Source: Streptomyces sp. NBC_00457
GTDB taxonomy: Bacteria; Actinomycetota; Actinomycetes; Streptomycetales; Streptomycetaceae
Reading direction: 5' to 3'
NCBI RefSeq assembly: GCF_036014015.1
Contig: NZ_CP107905.1
Coordinates: 8,742,001 to 8,806,000 of the forward strand
DNA length: 64,000 bases
Shown: positions 55,807-63,547 of the stretch, in pieces
Layout: every line of letters starts with the position of its first letter
Numbering within the stretch: the stretch's first letter is position 1
Notes under the pieces: model-generated
The model's database searches: none
Told to the model about the DNA's origin: nothing
The model's input: only the letters and a program-made list of their open reading frames with translations
Translations under genes and position numbers: made by a program

Positions 55807-56307
55807 CTACAGGAACTCGCTTCGGTAGGTCAAGGCCAGCTCGGCCGCGCGACGGCGGCGTTCCGCGAGCTCGTCCTCCGACAGCTGCGGCGGCGGTGCG
55901 TCCTTGCCCGCGACGACATCGCCGATGCGCAGGAAGTACTCGTCCTGGCCGGCGGGGGTGCACATGCACAGCATGCGGGCTGGCGCACCCGAGGCGTTGC
56001 GGAAGTTGTGCGGCGCGTTGGCCGGGATGTTGATCGTGGACCCGGCCCCTACGGTGTGCTTCTCGCCGCGGAAGGTGAACTCGATCTCGCCTTCGAGAAT
56101 CGTGAACATCTCCTCGAAGTCGTGTCGGTGCGGCGGTGGGCCGCCGCCGTCGGGGATGCGCATGTCGATCAGGCAGTATTGGCCGTTGGTCTGCTCGCCG
56201 GTGACCAGCATGGCGTACGTGTTGCCCACCAGCGAGATGTACGTCGTGCCGGGGTCGTCGGGGTTCGCGACGGTCAGCGAGCGGGACGGATCGTCGTCGG
56301 GGATCAT
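55807..56307 (-). CDS. Cupin domain protein
   Basis: 166-residue single-domain cupin. Motif 1 gives metal ligands H60, H62 and E66 (PPPHRHDFEEMFTILEGEIE) and motif 2 gives H100 (NIPANAPHNFRN), so the metal site is complete. The substrate is unknown; such proteins are dioxygenases, isomerases or sensors. Its ATG overlaps the stop of an oxidoreductase remnant (ATGA), indicating it was the downstream partner of a lost gene. Confidence 0.85.
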   Translation of the reverse strand: MIPDDDPSRSLTVANPDDPGTTYISLVGNTYAMLVTGEQTNGQYCLIDMRIPDGGGPPPHRHDFEEMFTILEGEIEFTFRGEKHTVGAGSTINIPANAPHNFRNASGAPARMLCMCTPAGQDEYFLRIGDVVAGKDAPPPQLSEDELAERRRRAAELALTYRSEFL

Positions 56308-57019: not shown

Positions 57020-57523
57020 TTATGCTCCGCCTTTGCGGCGGCGAGACGTGGCCGAGCGGGGCGGTGTCGAGCGCATATGGTCGCGTACCGGCGCCAGCAG
57101 GCTCGCGAGAGCCTTGACGTCGTCGCGCGAAAGCGGCTCGAACAACAGGCCGCCGACCACCTCGACATGCCCGGGCAGCACCTTCGCAAGCAGCTCACGC
57201 CCGGCATCGGTGATGGTGACGGTGATGCTCCGCTCGTCGTCCGGCGAGGGAGCGCGGACGACCAGGCCCTCCTTTTCGAGTAGACCTACCTGGTACGTCA
57301 GACCGCTGCGGCTGTAGACGACGCCGTCGGCGAGGTCGGTCATGCGGTGGCTGCCCGTCGGCGAGTCTCCGAGGCGGGCCAGCAGCTGGAACTGCACATA
57401 GCTGAGATCACCGGTCTCGCGCAGCTGCTGCTCGACCGCATGCCGGAGCAGGCTGGTCACCTCGACGAGGTCGAAGTAGGCGCCGAGTTGCACACGGTCG
57501 AGCGACGGCGGTGAATCAGGCAT
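57020..57523 (-). CDS. MarR-family transcriptional regulator
   Basis: 167-residue winged-helix repressor: helices VTSLLRHAVEQQLRETG, recognition region MTDLADGVVYSRSGLTYQVG, wing VVRAPSPDDERSITVTITDAG, and C-terminal dimer helices. The ATG at 57,523 has no Shine-Dalgarno sequence, but TAGACT (-10-like) lies 7-12 bases upstream on the minus strand, suggesting a leaderless mRNA. A palindrome CTTCGAATTCGAAG sits directly upstream of that -10, so it very likely represses itself. The same palindrome recurs in the downstream cluster. Confidence 0.9.
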   Translation of the reverse strand: MPDSPPSLDRVQLGAYFDLVEVTSLLRHAVEQQLRETGDLSYVQFQLLARLGDSPTGSHRMTDLADGVVYSRSGLTYQVGLLEKEGLVVRAPSPDDERSITVTITDAGRELLAKVLPGHVEVVGGLLFEPLSRDDVKALASLLAPVRDHMRSTPPRSATSRRRKGGA

Positions 57524-57538
57524 GTCAGGAGTCTACTG

Positions 57539-57552
57539 CTTCGAATTCGAAG
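57539..57552. promoter_or_regulatory. MarR operator O1
   Basis: Perfect 14-base palindrome CTTCGAATTCGAAG between the marR -10-like element (57,530-57,535) and the -35 position, 16 bases before the marR start. Confidence 0.65.
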
Positions 57553-57722
57553 AGTGTGGAGTGCCGCCGTTCCAGCCACCTCGGCGGTGGCCTCGTGAGC
57601 GCACGGTATGGGCAGTGTTGGGCCCGAGTGAGCACCGCAGAACATGGAGATCGGGCAGTGGTGCGGCACAGGGTTACGAGCACGAGGACGGCGCCGTCGC
57701 CCACGGATCCCGAGGACCGGCC

Positions 57723-58050
57723 ATGAGTATCTCCAGTCCCGCGCAACGTGAGGACCAGCAGCAGCTCGAGTGGATCGGCCGGAGTGTCTTCAGCGTCCTG
57801 CTCGACGCCGAGGAGGAGCACGGGTTACGGGAGGGCGGCATCCTGGCCCGGCGCATTCCGCACGGCTACCGCATCACTTCAGAGAAGGCGGACCTGCTGT
57901 TCATCTCGACCCCCAGAGGGCTGGAGAAGGTGTTCCGCCACGCGGGCCGTCACCTTCGTGAGCCGCCCGGAGGGCTTCGAGATCCCCGCTCAGCTGCTTG
58001 CCGAAGCCGCGGAACTGTCCGGCACCGTCGTCCTCGGCCCTCCCCGGTGA
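57723..58050 (+). pseudogene. Cupin pseudogene with core deletion and frameshift
   Basis: It begins MSISSPAQREDQQQLEWIG then SVFSVLLDAE and ends RPEGFEIPAQLLAEAAELSG then TVVLGPPR, the two ends of a well-known Streptomyces cupin of about 150 aa. About 50 residues that carry the metal-binding HxH barrel core are deleted after LLDAE. The segment EHGLREGGI with IPHGYRITSEKADLLFISTP follows, and a frameshift near RHAGR moves the end to another frame. A rare TTA codon (Leu of HGLREGG) lies at the deletion joint. Not functional as a cupin. Confidence 0.7.
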
Positions 58051-58099
58051 CGGCACCACAGCCCGGCCGCGGGGAAGAAGCCGAGAACACGATGCCGAG

Positions 58100-58672
58100 A
58101 TGAGCACCGCCGCGTGGAGTCTGTCCTTGGCTGTAGTGAGCGCCGGTGCCGGCTGTCCGCGTCCGACTCGCCGGCTCGCGGACTGGGTGGCGGAGGCTGT
58201 GTGCCGGTCACTGGCGGCCGGAGGTGCGCGCGCCGAGGTGGAGGTGCTGGAGCTGCACCGGCTGGCGCCCGACCTCGCTCAGCACTTTGCCCAGCGCCGC
58301 GCCAGCCTCGACCTGCGAGAGGCGATCGCGGCGGTCGTGGCGGCCGACGGGCTGGTGGTGGCGACCCCGGTGCTCGCCGCATCCCCGAGCGAGGTATTCG
58401 ACTCGTTCTTCGCCGTCCTCGGGGACGGAATCCTCTCCGGCATGCCGGTGCTGCTGGCGCTCAACAGCGGCTCCCGCTGGCAGCCGCCCGACCTCACGCA
58501 GGTGATGCGCAGACGCCTGACCGACGTGCACGCCGAACCCGTGCCCACGATCGTCGTCGCCGACCCCACCGACTGGCAGGCCACGGCGCGCAGCGACGCG
58601 GCGCGGCTGCGCGCGTGCATCGACCAGGCCGCCGCCGAACTCGCCGTGGCGATGAGCTCGCACCGGCAGTGA
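58100..58672 (+). CDS. NADPH-dependent FMN reductase family protein
   Basis: 190-residue flavodoxin-like protein, predicted to reduce FMN or quinone-like substrates with NAD(P)H. N-terminal strand LSLAVVSAGAGCPRPTRRLA, VAADGLVVATPVLAASPSEV (flavin-binding), SFFAVLGDGILSGMPVLLAL. ATG 58,100 follows the pseudogene by 50 bases; GATGCCGAG precedes it weakly. It lies before two MarR operator copies. Confidence 0.8.
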   Translation: MSTAAWSLSLAVVSAGAGCPRPTRRLADWVAEAVCRSLAAGGARAEVEVLELHRLAPDLAQHFAQRRASLDLREAIAAVVAADGLVVATPVLAASPSEVFDSFFAVLGDGILSGMPVLLALNSGSRWQPPDLTQVMRRRLTDVHAEPVPTIVVADPTDWQATARSDAARLRACIDQAAAELAVAMSSHRQ

Positions 58673-58686
58673 CCGACAAACACTTG

Positions 58687-58700
58687 CTTCGAATTCGAAG
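58687..58700. promoter_or_regulatory. MarR operator O2
   Basis: Second copy of the palindrome CTTCGAATTCGAAG, 71-84 bases before the MDR oxidoreductase start, followed at once by TAGATG, a possible -10. Confidence 0.6.
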
Positions 58701-58721
58701 TAGATGTACCGTCGTCAACAG

Positions 58722-58741
58722 TTGCTTCGAATTCGAAGCAA
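58722..58741. promoter_or_regulatory. MarR operator O3
   Basis: TTGCTTCGAATTCGAAGCAA, a perfect 20-base palindrome and the best copy of the site. Its centre is 38 bases from that of O2 and it ends 30 bases before the MDR gene start. Confidence 0.65.
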
Positions 58742-58770
58742 TATCGATCGCAGTGAAGGCGAGAACCGAA

Positions 58771-59715
58771 ATGAAGGCAGTGCGTTTCCACGAGTACGGC
58801 GACCCGAGCGTCCTGCGCTACGAGGACGTGGAGCAGCCCGTCCCCGGGGCCGGTGAGGTCCGGATCCGGGTCGCCGCGACGTCGTTCAACGGCGTCGACG
58901 GCAACATCCGCGGCGGCTTCATGCAAGGCCCCATCCCGGTGACGCTGCCGCACACTCCCGGCATCGACGTCTCCGGCACGGTCGAAGCGCTGGGCGAGGG
59001 CGTCGACGGCATCGCGGTCGGCGACCAGGTTGTCGGCTTCCTGCCGATGGACAAGCCCGGCGCCGCAGCGCAGTACGTCATCGCCCCGGCCGAGATCCTC
59101 GCGGCGGCGCCGAAGAGCGTCCCGCTGGCCGATGCCGCCGCGCTGCCGCTGGTGGGTCTCACCGCGTGGCAGGCGCTGTTCGATCACGCCAAGCTGACGG
59201 CGGGTCAGCGCGTGTTGGTCAACGGCGCGGGCGGAGCGGTCGGCGGCTACGCCGTGCAGCTGGCCAAGAACGCCGGCGCGTACGTGATAGCCACCGCCGG
59301 CCCGCGCAGCAGCCAGCAGATCAAGACGGCGGGCGCCGACGAGATCATCGATCACACCACCACCAAGGTGACCGACGCCGTGACCGAGCCGGTCGACGTC
59401 GTGCTCAACCTCGCGCCGATCGACCCGGCGCAGCTGGCCGCGCTGCCCGCCCTGATCGCTCCCGGTGGGGTGCTGGTGAACACCACGGTGTGGATGCCCG
59501 CCCCCCACGACGAACAGCGCGGCGTACGCGGCATCGACCTGTTCGTCCGCAGCGACGCCGACCAGCTGTCGCGGCTGGTGGCACTGATCGACTCCGGCGA
59601 GCTGCGCGTCGACGTCGCGCAGCGAGTGCCGCTGGCGGAGCTGCCGACAATCCACGCCCAGGCCGCCACGGGCGAGCTGCACGGCAAGGCCGTCATCGTC
59701 GCGACCGCCGCCTGA
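58771..59715 (+). CDS. NADP-dependent MDR oxidoreductase (quinone reductase-like)
   Basis: 314-residue zinc-independent medium-chain reductase. GroES-like domain (1-about 120; KAVRFHEYGDPSVLRYEDVE, PHTPGIDVSGTVEALGEGV), then a Rossmann domain with NGAGGAVGGYAVQLAKNAGA. The structural-zinc cysteines and the GHE catalytic motif are absent. Likely reduces quinones or alpha,beta-unsaturated carbonyls with NADPH. Two MarR operators precede it; it probably heads an operon with the two esterase genes. Confidence 0.88.
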   Translation: MKAVRFHEYGDPSVLRYEDVEQPVPGAGEVRIRVAATSFNGVDGNIRGGFMQGPIPVTLPHTPGIDVSGTVEALGEGVDGIAVGDQVVGFLPMDKPGAAAQYVIAPAEILAAAPKSVPLADAAALPLVGLTAWQALFDHAKLTAGQRVLVNGAGGAVGGYAVQLAKNAGAYVIATAGPRSSQQIKTAGADEIIDHTTTKVTDAVTEPVDVVLNLAPIDPAQLAALPALIAPGGVLVNTTVWMPAPHDEQRGVRGIDLFVRSDADQLSRLVALIDSGELRVDVAQRVPLAELPTIHAQAATGELHGKAVIVATAA

Positions 59716-59747
59716 CACCGACCGACCAGCCTCGAAAGGAAACGACC

Positions 59748-60698
59748 ATGACACTGTCCCTGGATCCCGAGATCGCCGAGGCGCTGGCCCCGATGGCCGG
59801 CGCGATGGCCGAGGCCAAGCCGCCGGCCGTGGGTGACATCGCGGGCCGCCGCGCCATGTGGGAACCGATCATCGGCGCCGCGGGAACCGCGCAGCCGATC
59901 CCGGCCGACGTGACGACCCACGAGCACCATGCGACCGCAGACGACGGCGCACACATCAAAATGCGCTGGTACGTCAAGGACGGCGCCGAGCCCGGCCCCG
60001 CCGTGCTGTTCTTCCACGGCGGCGGATACGTCCTCGGCCACATCGACCTGTTCGACGGCCCGGTCTCCCGCTACGTGTCCTCCAGCGGCGTGCCGATGCT
60101 GTCGGTCGAGTACCGCCGCGCCCCCGAGCACCCCTTCCCGACACCGCTCGAAGACGCCTACGCCGCACTGCGCTGGCTGCACGAACACGCCGCCGAGCTG
60201 GACGTCGACGCCCACCGCATCGGCGTGATGGGCGACAGCGCCGGAGGCGGCATGGCGGCCGCCCTGACCATCCTCGCCCGCGAGCGCGGCGGCCCGCGGA
60301 TCGCCCGGCAGATCCTGCTCATGCCGATGCTCGACGACCGCACCACCACGCCCGACCTCCACATCGAGCCCTACGCTCTGTGGTCCTACGACGACAGCCG
60401 CACCGCATGGCCGGCACTGCTCGGCGGGGCCGCCGGCGGCCCCGATGTCCCGCCCACGGCAGCACCCGCCCGTCTCGAGGATGCGACCGGCCTGCCGCCG
60501 GCCTACATCGAGGTCGGCCAACTCGACGTGTTCCGCGACGAGGACACCGCCTACGCGACCAAACTCAGCCGCGCCGGCGTGCCGGTGGAGTTCCACCTGC
60601 ACCCCGGCGCCCCGCACGAATTCGACTCCATCGCCTTCGACACCGACGTCGCGCGACGCGCCATCGCCGACCGGGTCCGAGTCCTCAAGTCGATCTGA
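59748..60698 (+). CDS. HSL-family alpha/beta hydrolase (esterase), copy 1
   Basis: 316-residue esterase of the hormone-sensitive-lipase family: oxyanion motif H90-GGG (FFHGGGYVLG), nucleophile S164 in GDSAGG, acid in ...GQLDVFRDED and His in HPGAPHEFD. ATG 59,748 after GAAAGGA, 32 bases after the MDR gene. A close paralogue follows 162 bases later. Confidence 0.9.
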   Translation: MTLSLDPEIAEALAPMAGAMAEAKPPAVGDIAGRRAMWEPIIGAAGTAQPIPADVTTHEHHATADDGAHIKMRWYVKDGAEPGPAVLFFHGGGYVLGHIDLFDGPVSRYVSSSGVPMLSVEYRRAPEHPFPTPLEDAYAALRWLHEHAAELDVDAHRIGVMGDSAGGGMAAALTILARERGGPRIARQILLMPMLDDRTTTPDLHIEPYALWSYDDSRTAWPALLGGAAGGPDVPPTAAPARLEDATGLPPAYIEVGQLDVFRDEDTAYATKLSRAGVPVEFHLHPGAPHEFDSIAFDTDVARRAIADRVRVLKSI

Positions 60699-60860
60699 AC
60701 CTACGCCGAGCGTGTTCACCCACGCCGCGGCACTGCCGCCGGCTCAGGCCAGGTCACGGTCGTCGTCTTCCTGGACGTCGGCTGAACTCAGCCGCCCTCC
60801 TGCTCGACCTGGCTATCAACCCGTTCCACCACTCACACCACGCAGCGAAAGACCGAGATC

Positions 60861-61802
60861 ATGACACTCAATTTGGACCCCGAAGTAGCCGAGGTTCTGG
60901 CTCAGATGGGCGGGACCGAAGCATTCCAGCCTTCGCGCGACGACGTCGAAGGTCGTCGAGCCTTCTGGGAGCCGATCCTCGCAGCCTCCGGCGCCGCCCA
61001 GCCCTTCCCTGAAGAAGTCCAGACGCGCGACAGCTACGTCACCGCGGACGACGGCACACAGATCCAGATGCGCTGGTACACCAAGAAGGGCATCACACCG
61101 GGTCCCGCAGTGGTGTACTTCCATGGCGGTGGCTATTTTTTCGGCCACATCGACCACTTCGACGGTCCCGTCGCCCGCTACGTCTCCGCCAGCGGCGTAC
61201 CCATGCTCTCCGTCGAATACCGCCGCGCCCCCGAATACCCCTTTCCCACCCCGGTCGAAGACGGCTATGCAGCGCTGAACTGGCTGCACGACCACGCCGT
61301 AGAACTCGGCGTCGACCCCGGCCGGATCGGAGTCATGGGCGACAGCGCCGGCGGCGGCATGGCCGCAGCCGTGTCGATCCTCGCGCGAGAGCGAGGTGGG
61401 CCGCAGATCGCCCGCCAGATCCTCATCATGCCGATGCTCGACGACCGCACCAGCGCCCCTGACCCCCACCTCGCGCCCTTCGTCAACAACTCCGGTGACC
61501 TTGTCGCGGGGTGGCAAACGTATCTCGGCGACGCCGTCGGAGGGTCCAACGTCCCCGCCGCGGCTGCGCCCGCACGGCTCGAGGATGCAACTGACCTTCC
61601 CGCGGCCTACATCGAGGTCGGCCAACTCGACCTGTTCCGCGACGAGGACACCGCCTACGCGACCAAGCTCAGCCGCGCCGGCGTGCCGGTGGAGTTCCAC
61701 CTTCACCCCGGCGTCCCGCACGAGTTCGACTCCATCGCCTTCGGCGCCGACGTCGCGCGGCGTGCCATCGCCGACCGGGTCCGGGTGCTCAAGTCGATCT
61801 GA
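60861..61802 (+). CDS. HSL-family alpha/beta hydrolase (esterase), copy 2
   Basis: 313 residues, paralogue of the preceding gene along its whole length, with H88-GGG, S162 in GDSAGG and HPGVPHEFD. The last 200 bases are nearly identical to copy 1 (about 11 differences), while the central DNA differs at many third positions, suggesting a duplicated gene with later gene conversion at its 3' end. Codon use is less GC-biased than in copy 1. The 162 bases before it hold no other gene. Confidence 0.9.
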   Translation: MTLNLDPEVAEVLAQMGGTEAFQPSRDDVEGRRAFWEPILAASGAAQPFPEEVQTRDSYVTADDGTQIQMRWYTKKGITPGPAVVYFHGGGYFFGHIDHFDGPVARYVSASGVPMLSVEYRRAPEYPFPTPVEDGYAALNWLHDHAVELGVDPGRIGVMGDSAGGGMAAAVSILARERGGPQIARQILIMPMLDDRTSAPDPHLAPFVNNSGDLVAGWQTYLGDAVGGSNVPAAAAPARLEDATDLPAAYIEVGQLDLFRDEDTAYATKLSRAGVPVEFHLHPGVPHEFDSIAFGADVARRAIADRVRVLKSI

Positions 61803-61872
61803 GCCGTGACCAGCGGCCTGCTGTCACATACCAACCCACATCTCCAGCCGCATATCGCTGCACCCCGCCGGC

Positions 61873-61892
61873 TTGCTTCCCATTCGAAGCAT
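61873..61892. promoter_or_regulatory. MarR operator O4, degenerate
   Basis: TTGCTTCCCATTCGAAGCAT matches the 20-base palindrome except near the centre and last base. It lies 57-76 bases before the SRPBCC gene start. Confidence 0.45.
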
Positions 61893-61948
61893 TTCATGTT
61901 CGTTAATGCGTCACGGTGGATTCACATCACCAAGACAGGAGAACATCG

Positions 61949-62473
61949 ATGTCCGACAAGAAACCGATACCCCTCCTTATCGGCTCAGCCGACAACACCG
62001 TTCCGATCACAGTCCAGCGGCGAACTTCGGTGGCGCCCGCCAACGCGTTCCGATTGATCGTCCCCATCGACCTGTCGAGCGTTTTCCACCGGGTGGCACC
62101 CTTTCCCGGTGTCAAAGGTGTGGCAAACCAGACCGAAGCATGGGATCACGTCGGTCCCACCAGGAACCCGCAGTTCGACGACGGGTCACAAGCCGACGAA
62201 CAGTTGACCGAGTACACGGAAGGCTCGAGTTTCGCGTATCAGCTGACGGGATTCACGAACATCCTCTCTCGACTCGCGGCAGGCGTTCGAGGTGAATGGA
62301 ACTTCAATCCCGACGGCGATGGCACCCTCATTCGGTGGACCTACGAATTCAAGCCTCTTCCGGGTCGTCGCTGGATTCTCGGCGGTCCATTCACTCTCCT
62401 CTGGCGCCGATACATGGTGGCCGCCCTCGCGAGGTGCCTGCAAGTGATCGAATCGGAAGAAAACCGCTCGTAG
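61949..62473 (+). CDS. SRPBCC-family (START-like) protein
   Basis: 174 residues; ATG after ACAGGAGAAC. Pattern of a polyketide cyclase/dehydrase-like hydrophobic-pocket fold: early strand VPITVQRRTSV, EYTEGSSFAYQLTGF, and a C-terminal long helix ending LARCLQVIESEENRS. No catalytic residues can be assigned; the fold binds small hydrophobic or aromatic molecules. GC content and codon use are visibly lower than in neighbouring genes, suggesting separate acquisition. Confidence 0.75.
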   Translation: MSDKKPIPLLIGSADNTVPITVQRRTSVAPANAFRLIVPIDLSSVFHRVAPFPGVKGVANQTEAWDHVGPTRNPQFDDGSQADEQLTEYTEGSSFAYQLTGFTNILSRLAAGVRGEWNFNPDGDGTLIRWTYEFKPLPGRRWILGGPFTLLWRRYMVAALARCLQVIESEENRS

Positions 62474-62671: not shown

Positions 62672-63547
62672 ATGAGCACACCCTCCCTCTCTCTTCCCGG
62701 CGGCACCTGGACTCTGGGTGACCTGACCGTCACCCGGTTCGGCTACGGCGCCATGCAACTGGCCGGCCCGTGGGTCATGGGGCCGCCCGCCGATCGCGAG
62801 GGCGCCCTGGCCGTTCTGCGCGAAGCGGCGGTCCACCTCGGTATCACCCACATCGACACCAGCGACGCCTACGGGCCGCGCGTCACCAACGAGTTGATCC
62901 GCGAGGCGCTGCACCCCTACCCCGAGTCGCTGCACATCGTGACCAAGGTGGGCGCGACCCGCGACGAACAAGGTGGCTGGCCCACGGCCCGGCGACCCGA
63001 AGATCTGCGCCGCCAGGTCCACGACAACCTCAAGTCCCTCCGGCTCGACGTACTAGACCTGGTCAACCTCCGACTCGGCAACGCCGAAGGTCCCCAGCCC
63101 GGCTCGCTCGCCGAGGCGTTCGAGACGCTCGTGGAACTCCAGCAGCAGGGCTTGATCCGCCACCTCGGGGTCAGCAACGCCACCGAGGAGCAGGTCACCG
63201 AGGCACAGAGCATCGCGCCGATCGTGTGCGTGCAGAACATGTACAACCTCGCCCACCGCCACGACGACAAGCTCATCGACCGGCTCGCCACCGAAGGCGT
63301 CGCGTACGTGCCCTTCTTCCCCCTCGGGGGCTTTACCCCGCTCCAGTCCTCAGCGCTCTCGGCGGTCGCCGCTCGATTGAAGACGACACCGATGTCCGTC
63401 GCACTGGCCTGGCTGCTGCAGCGATCACCGAACGTCCTGCTCATCCCCGGCACGTCATCGACAGCGCACCTGCGCGAGAACATCGCCGGCGCGGGACTCT
63501 CCCTCTCGCATGAGGACTTGACCGAGCTGGACGACATCGGCCGCTGA
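62672..63547 (+). CDS. Aldo/keto reductase with altered catalytic His
   Basis: 291 residues, (beta/alpha)8 barrel. From the AKR tetrad, D62 and Y67 (HIDTSDAYGP) and K92 (HIVTKVG) are present, but the His of the LxxLH motif is replaced, reading DLVNLRLGN (R134). The phosphate-binding end PGTSSTAHLRENI suggests NADPH. Probably reduces small carbonyls. ATG 62,672 after GACGAAAGG; the 198 bases before it show no gene. Confidence 0.85.
   Translation: MSTPSLSLPGGTWTLGDLTVTRFGYGAMQLAGPWVMGPPADREGALAVLREAAVHLGITHIDTSDAYGPRVTNELIREALHPYPESLHIVTKVGATRDEQGGWPTARRPEDLRRQVHDNLKSLRLDVLDLVNLRLGNAEGPQPGSLAEAFETLVELQQQGLIRHLGVSNATEEQVTEAQSIAPIVCVQNMYNLAHRHDDKLIDRLATEGVAYVPFFPLGGFTPLQSSALSAVAARLKTTPMSVALAWLLQRSPNVLLIPGTSSTAHLRENIAGAGLSLSHEDLTELDDIGR

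Follow-up and report, generated by a model that had tools for sequence, protein, structure and literature searches.

A predicted MarR operator shared by a regulator gene and a nearby quinone-oxidoreductase-like gene in Streptomyces sp. NBC_00457

Genes and palindromes of the locus

The stretch analyzed here, which we call the window, comprises 64,000 nucleotides of the chromosome of Streptomyces sp. NBC_00457 (contig NZ_CP107905.1, positions 8,742,001 to 8,806,000). It contains a MarR-family regulator gene (marR) and, on the opposite strand, a gene for an oxidoreductase of the MDR superfamily (MDR). Upstream of both, we observed copies of a palindrome, CTTCGAATTCGAAG, that we interpret as the operator of the MarR protein. 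The features on which this interpretation is built are listed below, with coordinates counted from the first letter of the window.

57020 to 57523, minus strand: marR, predicted Cys-less MarR-family repressor, 167 residues (Pfam MarR_2, 1.7e-11, above cutoff)
57530 to 57535, minus strand: TAGACT, −10 element of marR, 6 nt before the ATG
57539 to 57552: O-marR, predicted operator CTTCGAATTCGAAG, box in the marR promoter spacer
58684 to 58689, plus strand: TTGCTT, −35 element of MDR, reaching into the left arm of box 1
58687 to 58700: O-MDR1, predicted operator, exact palindrome (box 1)
58707 to 58712, plus strand: TACCGT, −10 element of MDR, 17-nt spacer from the −35
58722 to 58741: O-MDR2, predicted operator, 20-base perfect palindrome (box 2), 3′ of the −10 and near or just past the transcription start
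58771 to 59715, plus strand: MDR, NADPH:quinone-oxidoreductase-like protein of the MDR superfamily, 314 residues (Pfam ADH_N and ADH_zinc_N_2)

The MarR domains exceed their Pfam cutoffs (PF12802 and PF01047, at 44.5 versus 27 bits and 34.6 versus 24.6 bits), as do both domains of MDR (ADH_N, 56.0 bits; ADH_zinc_N_2, 68.3 bits). MDR shares this two-domain architecture with quinone oxidoreductases of the MDR superfamily (3tqh and 5a3j), and 3tqh is its nearest solved chain. When eight proteins of the locus were scanned with NCBIfam models, the only one to pass was an aldo/keto reductase (PRK10376 oxidoreductase subfamily). No NCBIfam model reached its cutoff with MDR, the best being a PIG3-family model at 148 bits against 297, and none of the NCBIfam MarR models reached its cutoff with MarR.

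The initial annotation of this DNA had described one palindrome, repeated four times, as the mark of a private MarR regulon. Three of the copies are exact (57539–57552, 58687–58700 and 58725–58738), at the positions it gave, and the last is extended before MDR, again as described, to the perfect 20-base palindrome TTGCTTCGAATTCGAAGCAA spanning 58722–58741. The fourth copy, before a downstream SRPBCC gene, is real but degenerate, with two mismatches to CTTCGAATTCGAAG; the 14-mer occupies 61876–61889, and the 61,873 reported for it is the start of the 20-base frame. The further remark that the palindrome was not seen elsewhere in the window holds at up to two mismatches but not at three, where a single additional match appears at 2515. 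At that tolerance, the window has five matches as compared with 1.26 ± 1.42 in shuffled sequence, and because 3 of 100 shuffles also reached five, this loose count is unimpressive on its own.

At the scale of the chromosome, a single contig of 10,802,565 bp, the exact palindrome occurs three times and always in the window, whereas base composition predicts ~0.005 copies in 10.8 Mb. The genome scan that had been proposed as a check on the initial annotation therefore yields no exact copy away from the locus. Near matches comprise two sites with one mismatch and 33 with two, the SRPBCC-side copy included. The reversed pattern, a control not matched for composition or dinucleotides, gave 3 matches versus 38 in all at up to two mismatches.

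Conservation of the boxes and their promoters

We searched 199 genomes of the same genus for marR homologs (E ≤ 1e-30) and found them in 11: seven at 89–100% identity, the window's own genome among them, one at 65% and three at 40–43%. Four of the 199 contain the exact 16-mer GCTTCGAATTCGAAGC. Each of these is one of the seven genomes whose marR ortholog reaches 89% identity or more, and the six places at which the 16-mer occurs all lie within ~1.5 kb of marR. The overlap between the two sets of genomes has a hypergeometric probability of 5.5e-7, assuming an independence of genomes that is not fully met.

For comparison over a wider range, we used 82 loci, consisting of the best 80 of 275 loci from a named collection, the window's own locus and that of one genus genome (L056), with flanks of at most 8 kb, many of them cut by contig ends. 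The collection orthologs of marR (best 80 of 275) show 75–98% identity and come from Streptomyces, Amycolatopsis, Lentzea, Saccharothrix, Nocardia, Actinomadura, Pseudonocardia, Modestobacter and other genera, as well as from Solirubrobacter, which belongs to another class, Thermoleophilia. In 78 of the 82 loci, a box (≤3 mismatches) lies no more than 60 bp from the marR start. MDR is visible in 72, and in 70 of these a pair of boxes precedes it; in the remaining two, L133 and L135, the contig stops short of the 5′ end of MDR. For L135, MDR and its box pair are visible on L150, a contig end that overlaps it over 757 identical bases. Across the 1,226,684 bp of these sequences, 207 of 209 matches at up to two mismatches sit upstream of marR or MDR at a distance of no more than 160 bp, and the other two are the SRPBCC-side sites of the window and of S. 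phaeochromogenes (L100); three 50-bp block shuffles of the same sequence gave 1, 0 and 0 matches.

These distributions bear directly on whether the repeats could be accidental, or members of a dispersed family with no regulatory role. The window count at up to three mismatches, which exceeds that of the shuffles only modestly, would be compatible with such an origin, but exact copies are absent from the rest of the 10.8 Mb, the promoter positions are fixed across genera and across two classes, and nearly every match among the loci lies upstream of marR or MDR. We therefore treat this explanation as refuted in practice and its probability as negligible. The palindrome is, by its phylogenetic footprint, strongly supported as an operator, and the notion of a private MarR operator set gains strong support from this conservation together with the uniqueness of the sequence in the chromosome.

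The boxes overlap the promoters of both genes in a recurrent arrangement. On the coding strand of marR, TAGACT comes 3 nt after the 14-mer and 6 nt ahead of the ATG, and the orthologs repeat this arrangement: in 74 of 78 marR promoters, a 16-bp box is followed after 2 nt (68) or 3 nt (6) by TANNNT, and the −10 element stands 6 nt (64 promoters) or 7 nt (7 promoters) from the start codon. Because the −10 lies so close to the start codon, the marR mRNA looks leaderless. No conserved −35 was seen among the upstream sequences listed for the marR orthologs, so the description of the box as lying exactly in the marR promoter spacer is borne out on the −10 side only. In the MDR promoters, TTGCTT is present in 67 of 70 (in two exceptions, L104 and L112, the marR box was the one scored), and TANNNT follows at a 17-nt spacer in 67 and at 18 nt in one more. 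Box 2 starts ~10–17 nt past the −10, and the start-to-start spacing of the two boxes is 38 bp in 53 of the 70 promoters, 37 bp in 11, 36 bp in four, and 35 and 39 bp once each. Both layouts would fit occlusion of RNA polymerase.

MDR is absent from view in 10 of the 82 loci, and in five of these the contig ends at most ~1 kb away from marR. The five uncut cases are L086, L101, L106, L114 and L121. A genome-wide search with the 16-mer at up to two mismatches in genomes holding marR found, among the matches listed, a box pair before an MDR homolog elsewhere in all five of these genomes, at 58–85% identity. The remote genes are as follows.

L159: MDR of 85% identity, boxes 38 bp apart
L149: MDR of 78% identity, boxes 38 bp apart
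L153: MDR of 73% identity, boxes 38 bp apart, ~190 kb from marR on one contig
L154: MDR of 66% identity, boxes 34 bp apart, the second box with three mismatches
L152: MDR of 58% identity, boxes 34 bp apart

The box pair thus stays with an MDR that lacks an adjacent intact marR. L133 and L135 were dropped as unlinked cases because MDR adjoins marR in both and is cut by the contig end; L150 was likewise discarded as a remote site of L135, being the same place, and the pair L133/L146 is undecided. In Actinophytocola xanthii, a marR remnant comprising only residues 1–25 and 135–163 lies beside the box-bearing MDR (L149:1339–1485), and an intact marR is found on another contig.

A different transcription factor might in principle read the palindrome, with marR being just one of its targets, since palindromes of 14–20 bp are used by many regulators. 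Against this, the exact 16-mer is found among the 199 genus genomes only where this marR is present, the boxes track marR across genera and also precede the unlinked MDR genes, and related MarR subfamilies carry related boxes before their own genes. We consider this alternative very improbable and continue to assign the boxes to MarR itself.

The cassette is patchy, occurring at 89% identity or more in 7 of the 199 genus genomes, yet the regulator is strongly conserved from genus to genus. In 69 of 72 loci, its identity to the window's regulator exceeds that of MDR to the window's enzyme (median identities of 89% versus 79%). It has likely spread horizontally. Two marR copies, each with its own boxes and on separate contigs, are present in S. 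scabichelini (L066 and L081) and in S. diastatochromogenes (L071 and L075).

Extent of the regulon

The initial annotation had assigned a broad set of targets to the regulator, namely a flavin reductase, MDR, two esterases and SRPBCC, with an aldo/keto reductase and an isochorismatase (the label is that of the initial annotation) as possible additions. The neighboring features concerned are listed below.

58100 to 58672, plus strand: flavin reductase gene (FMN reductase by Pfam)
59748 to 60698, plus strand: esterase 1, alpha/beta hydrolase (Pfam Abhydrolase_3), starting 32 nt after MDR
60861 to 61802, plus strand: esterase 2 (Pfam Abhydrolase_3), tandem paralog of esterase 1
61876 to 61889: CTTCCCATTCGAAG, candidate degenerate operator before SRPBCC, two mismatches
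61949 to 62473, plus strand: SRPBCC gene (Polyketide_cyc2, Pfam PF10604, 8.2e-11)
62672 to 63547, plus strand: aldo/keto reductase gene (by Pfam)

That list proves too wide. The sequence evidence supports a regulon of marR, MDR and, by its operon position, esterase 1, with SRPBCC weakly indicated. Esterase 1 plausibly shares the MDR transcript, and a homolog of it is present in at least 23 of the 82 loci; this and the other counts of neighboring genes are lower bounds because the flanks are short and often cut. The membership of esterase 2 is uncertain, as it begins 162 nt beyond esterase 1 and lacks a separate box.

SRPBCC could belong as a third member, bound weakly. Among the three loci that have a close SRPBCC gene, a site on the SRPBCC side occurs in two, one of them that of the window, and chance near matches in a stretch of 5.5 kb at the genome-wide rate would amount to 0.017 sites. 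In S. phaeochromogenes (L100), the 16-mer core GCTTCCCATTCGAAGC and a nearby TCATGTTCG are kept in a diverged spacer between the esterase and SRPBCC genes. No such box was found in L056, whose SRPBCC is 83% identical. Upstream of SRPBCC in this genome (G128, L056:5400–5700), the degenerate box is missing and a contracted palindrome, GCTTCGAAGC, stands closer to the start codon.

Could the regulon nevertheless extend through read-through or weak sites to the flavin reductase, both esterases, SRPBCC, the aldo/keto reductase and the isochorismatase? The genes are co-directional from 58100 to past 63547, the marR box stands upstream of a divergent cupin remnant and the flavin reductase, and flavin reductase homologs accompany at least 22 of the 82 loci. 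The flavin reductase, however, sits upstream of the MDR boxes, and no box at up to three mismatches precedes it, the aldo/keto reductase or the isochorismatase in the 20 kb of L017. The latter two genes are found near marR in one of the 82 loci, that of the window itself, and we rejected both as members. A regulon of this breadth is accordingly unlikely, and we favor the narrow one centered on MDR.

Several further features of the neighborhood were noted. Between marR and the flavin reductase gene lies the remnant of a cupin gene (57723–58050), to which 17 relatives align at least 100 columns of a longer cupin; it is without ~46 central residues, including a His-bearing stretch, and shows an apparent later change of frame. 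A second cupin gene (55807–56307) recurs beside marR, on either side, in 20 of the 82 loci at 50% identity or more, mostly above 90%. The window has two tandem esterase genes after MDR (59748–61802), and most esterase-bearing relatives show one.

Sensor, operator recognition and the proposed switch

The nearest solved relatives of MarR, by sequence and by fold, are SCO3205 in complex with DNA (3zpl) and AbsC (3zmd), at ~30% identity. The fold search used an AlphaFold model with a mean pLDDT of 76.8, built on 34 close sequences, and the best 50 Foldseek matches listed are MarR-type regulators by title. The AbsC structure holds salicylate, and the pseudopalindromes bound by SCO3205 lie before its gene and a divergent neighbor; Arg72, Ser73 and His77 of SCO3205 contact bases, and its Trp16 and His119 match the salicylate-binding residues of AbsC (PMC3737563). 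Arg72, Ser73 and the pocket residue His119 are kept in the MarR of the window. All 34 aligned orthologs keep Tyr16 and His119, which align with Trp16 and His119 of SCO3205. Despite these likenesses, the two proteins differ in that Arg74 and His77 of SCO3205 are Gly74 and Tyr77 here and its pocket Trp16 is Tyr16; the operator consensus is TTnAAnnnTCAA for SCO3205 and TTCGAATTCGAA here, and the neighbor is extradiol dioxygenase-like there and MDR here. We therefore do not place the protein in the SCO3205 subfamily.

No cysteine is present in any of the 82 MarR orthologs, each taken from its aligned start through to the stop. Because the reactive N-terminal cysteine of the thiol-based sensors (OhrR/EstR and QsrR/YodB) is missing throughout, we rejected that class, and the sensing of oxidants through a thiol, one of the ligand types envisaged in the initial annotation, is unlikely. 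EstR of Agrobacterium offers a parallel in layout, as a MarR protein that controls an esterase gene (estC) and itself through two separate palindromes; it is an OhrR-type thiol sensor that needs Cys16 and has the operator GTTATCGCGATAAC (PMC5201249), in contrast to the Cys-less protein described here.

Another parallel is MhqR of Staphylococcus aureus (Protein Data Bank entries 9qdr and 9smz), a MarR protein without a conserved cysteine (PMC12893000) that binds methylbenzoquinone beside a pocket histidine (PMC12893000, PMC6798810). MhqR resembles the present regulator, as predicted here, in this lack of cysteine, in a recognition-helix tyrosine predicted to contact DNA, and in controlling a carboxylesterase-type enzyme within a small private regulon; it responds to quinones. 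Its operator, TATCTCGAA-aTCGAaATA (TATCTCGAA-ATCGAAATA), has the inner CGA of each half-site in common with the present box and differs in the outer bases. In the fold alignment, MhqR shares only 23% identity with the present protein, and it controls mhqRED (dioxygenase and esterase) from one operator at the start site; its pocket comprises Phe11, Phe39, Glu43 and His111, and His119 here is matched through the pocket histidine of SCO3205 and AbsC, not through the sequence of MhqR. With 9qdr ranking 40th by fold and seventh by profile, behind SCO3205 and AbsC, we do not regard MhqR as an ortholog or as the closest relative. The predicted targets, a quinone-reductase-like enzyme and an esterase, lead us to guess at a quinone or phenol as the ligand, for which we consider the odds about even.

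Comparison with related MarR proteins hints at how the operator may be read. The recognition helix is SRSGLTY in this protein and TRSRLTY in its closest paralog in the same genome (33% identity; G000:C1:5799178–5799772, L016:5179–5773), whose gene lies between genes for GTP cyclohydrolase II and a RibD_C protein. At the paralog locus, GCTTCAGATTTGAAGC and GCTTCAATTTTGAAGC precede the GTP cyclohydrolase II gene and TTCAAGTTTGAA precedes the paralog. The GTP cyclohydrolase II gene is preceded by two GCTTC-N6-GAAGC boxes 44 bp apart. Judged by these sites, it is possible that the paralog controls riboflavin synthesis genes.

In the clade with the helix SKSGLTY, half-sites are mostly (G/T)GTTCRAA and the core occurs in 27 of 29 promoter windows (0.016 expected per window); in the TRSRLTY clade, it occurs in 22 of 28 loci (0.095 expected per window). 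This core scan left out loci without an open frame (one SKSG and two RSR), and because it fixes TT and C/G beforehand, the half-site tables are biased toward the core. An earlier scan, in which some helices were mispicked, found perfect or near-perfect palindromes in 4 of 29 SKSG loci. At the −3 position, the base is A in 9 of 16 half-sites of four proteins carrying G74A, versus 28 of 414 half-sites of proteins with Gly74; the G74A proteins are all from Solirubrobacter, and two are probably from one species. These counts do no more than suggest an influence of residue 74 on the −3 base of the operator: the residue cannot be separated from the clade, and some letters were fixed in the scan.

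Taken together, these results are most readily accommodated by a MarR–MDR switch, a model that sequence comparison leads us to hold with considerable confidence. MarR (57020–57523) would act as a homodimeric repressor on the operator TTGCTTCGAA|TTCGAAGCAA. It would shut its own leaderless promoter through the single box just 5′ of the −10, and the MDR–esterase promoter through two boxes 38 bp apart, of which box 1 covers the −35 hexamer and the spacer and box 2 the start region. The dimer would be released once a small molecule, in all likelihood an electrophile of the phenolic or quinone type, occupies the usual MarR dimer pocket, whereupon MDR, as an NADPH:quinone/enone reductase, and the co-transcribed esterase would be made, and the level of MarR would then rise and reset the switch. 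SRPBCC may be included as the third, weak target. We infer that the protein binds these boxes and represses rather than activates; the ligand class and the enzyme substrates are proposed on a similar footing.

Several points weigh against this model. The genome of the window holds 34 remote 14-mer matches at up to two mismatches, so a looser site could add targets; the 10 remote near matches inspected (eight of these 34 and two to a spaced pattern) all lie inside long open frames, of 123–1000 residues with GC3 (GC content at third codon positions) of 0.77–0.91. The marR box was not found in 4 of the 82 loci (L118, L132, L133 and L138). In addition, relatedness among the 82 loci means that they do not count as independent: L141 and L142 appear conspecific, and two genomes give two loci each. 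Finally, MarR proteins can also activate transcription.

An activating or dual role at MDR would be in keeping with two boxes at nearly fixed spacing, and some family members do activate, such as AcsR, which activates ncgl2258 (PMC13118786). In nearly all orthologs, however, box 1 lies over the −35 and box 2 downstream of the −10, positions at which a bound protein is expected to block RNA polymerase, and we judge activation improbable relative to repression by MarR.

The circuit is very probably real but conventional in type. No description of this marR–MDR pair was found among the literature matches listed, in a search whose coverage leaves most subscription journals outside; matches listed for the 12-mer TTCGAATTCGAA, and for GCTTCGAA with GAAGC and MarR, are unrelated or biomedical by title. 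The operator circuit itself is apparently undescribed, and circuits of this type are well known.

More tentatively, and with somewhat less than even confidence in the whole, the pair may be the founding example of a patchy actinobacterial electrophile switch, in which a quinone sensor that resembles MhqR, lacks cysteine and has an operator of its own spreads as a unit with its enzyme, and the operator pair is kept at MDR when the two genes become unlinked, within a MarR clade where residues 72, 74 and 77 predict the operator. Under this joint proposal, SRSG-LTY would read GCTTCGAA, SKSG-LTY mostly (G/T)GTTCRAA, TRSR-LTY TTCAA and TRSR-LSH (SCO3205) TTGA, and the natural G74A exchange of Solirubrobacter would relax the −3 base from G to A.

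These findings assign a specific predicted operator, a main target and a candidate ligand class to a regulator of unknown function that occurs in many actinomycetes. The locus also provides a small and probably inducible promoter that comes with three defined, predicted operators. If the pattern linking helix to operator holds, the operators of many uncharacterized streptomycete MarR proteins would become predictable from sequence.

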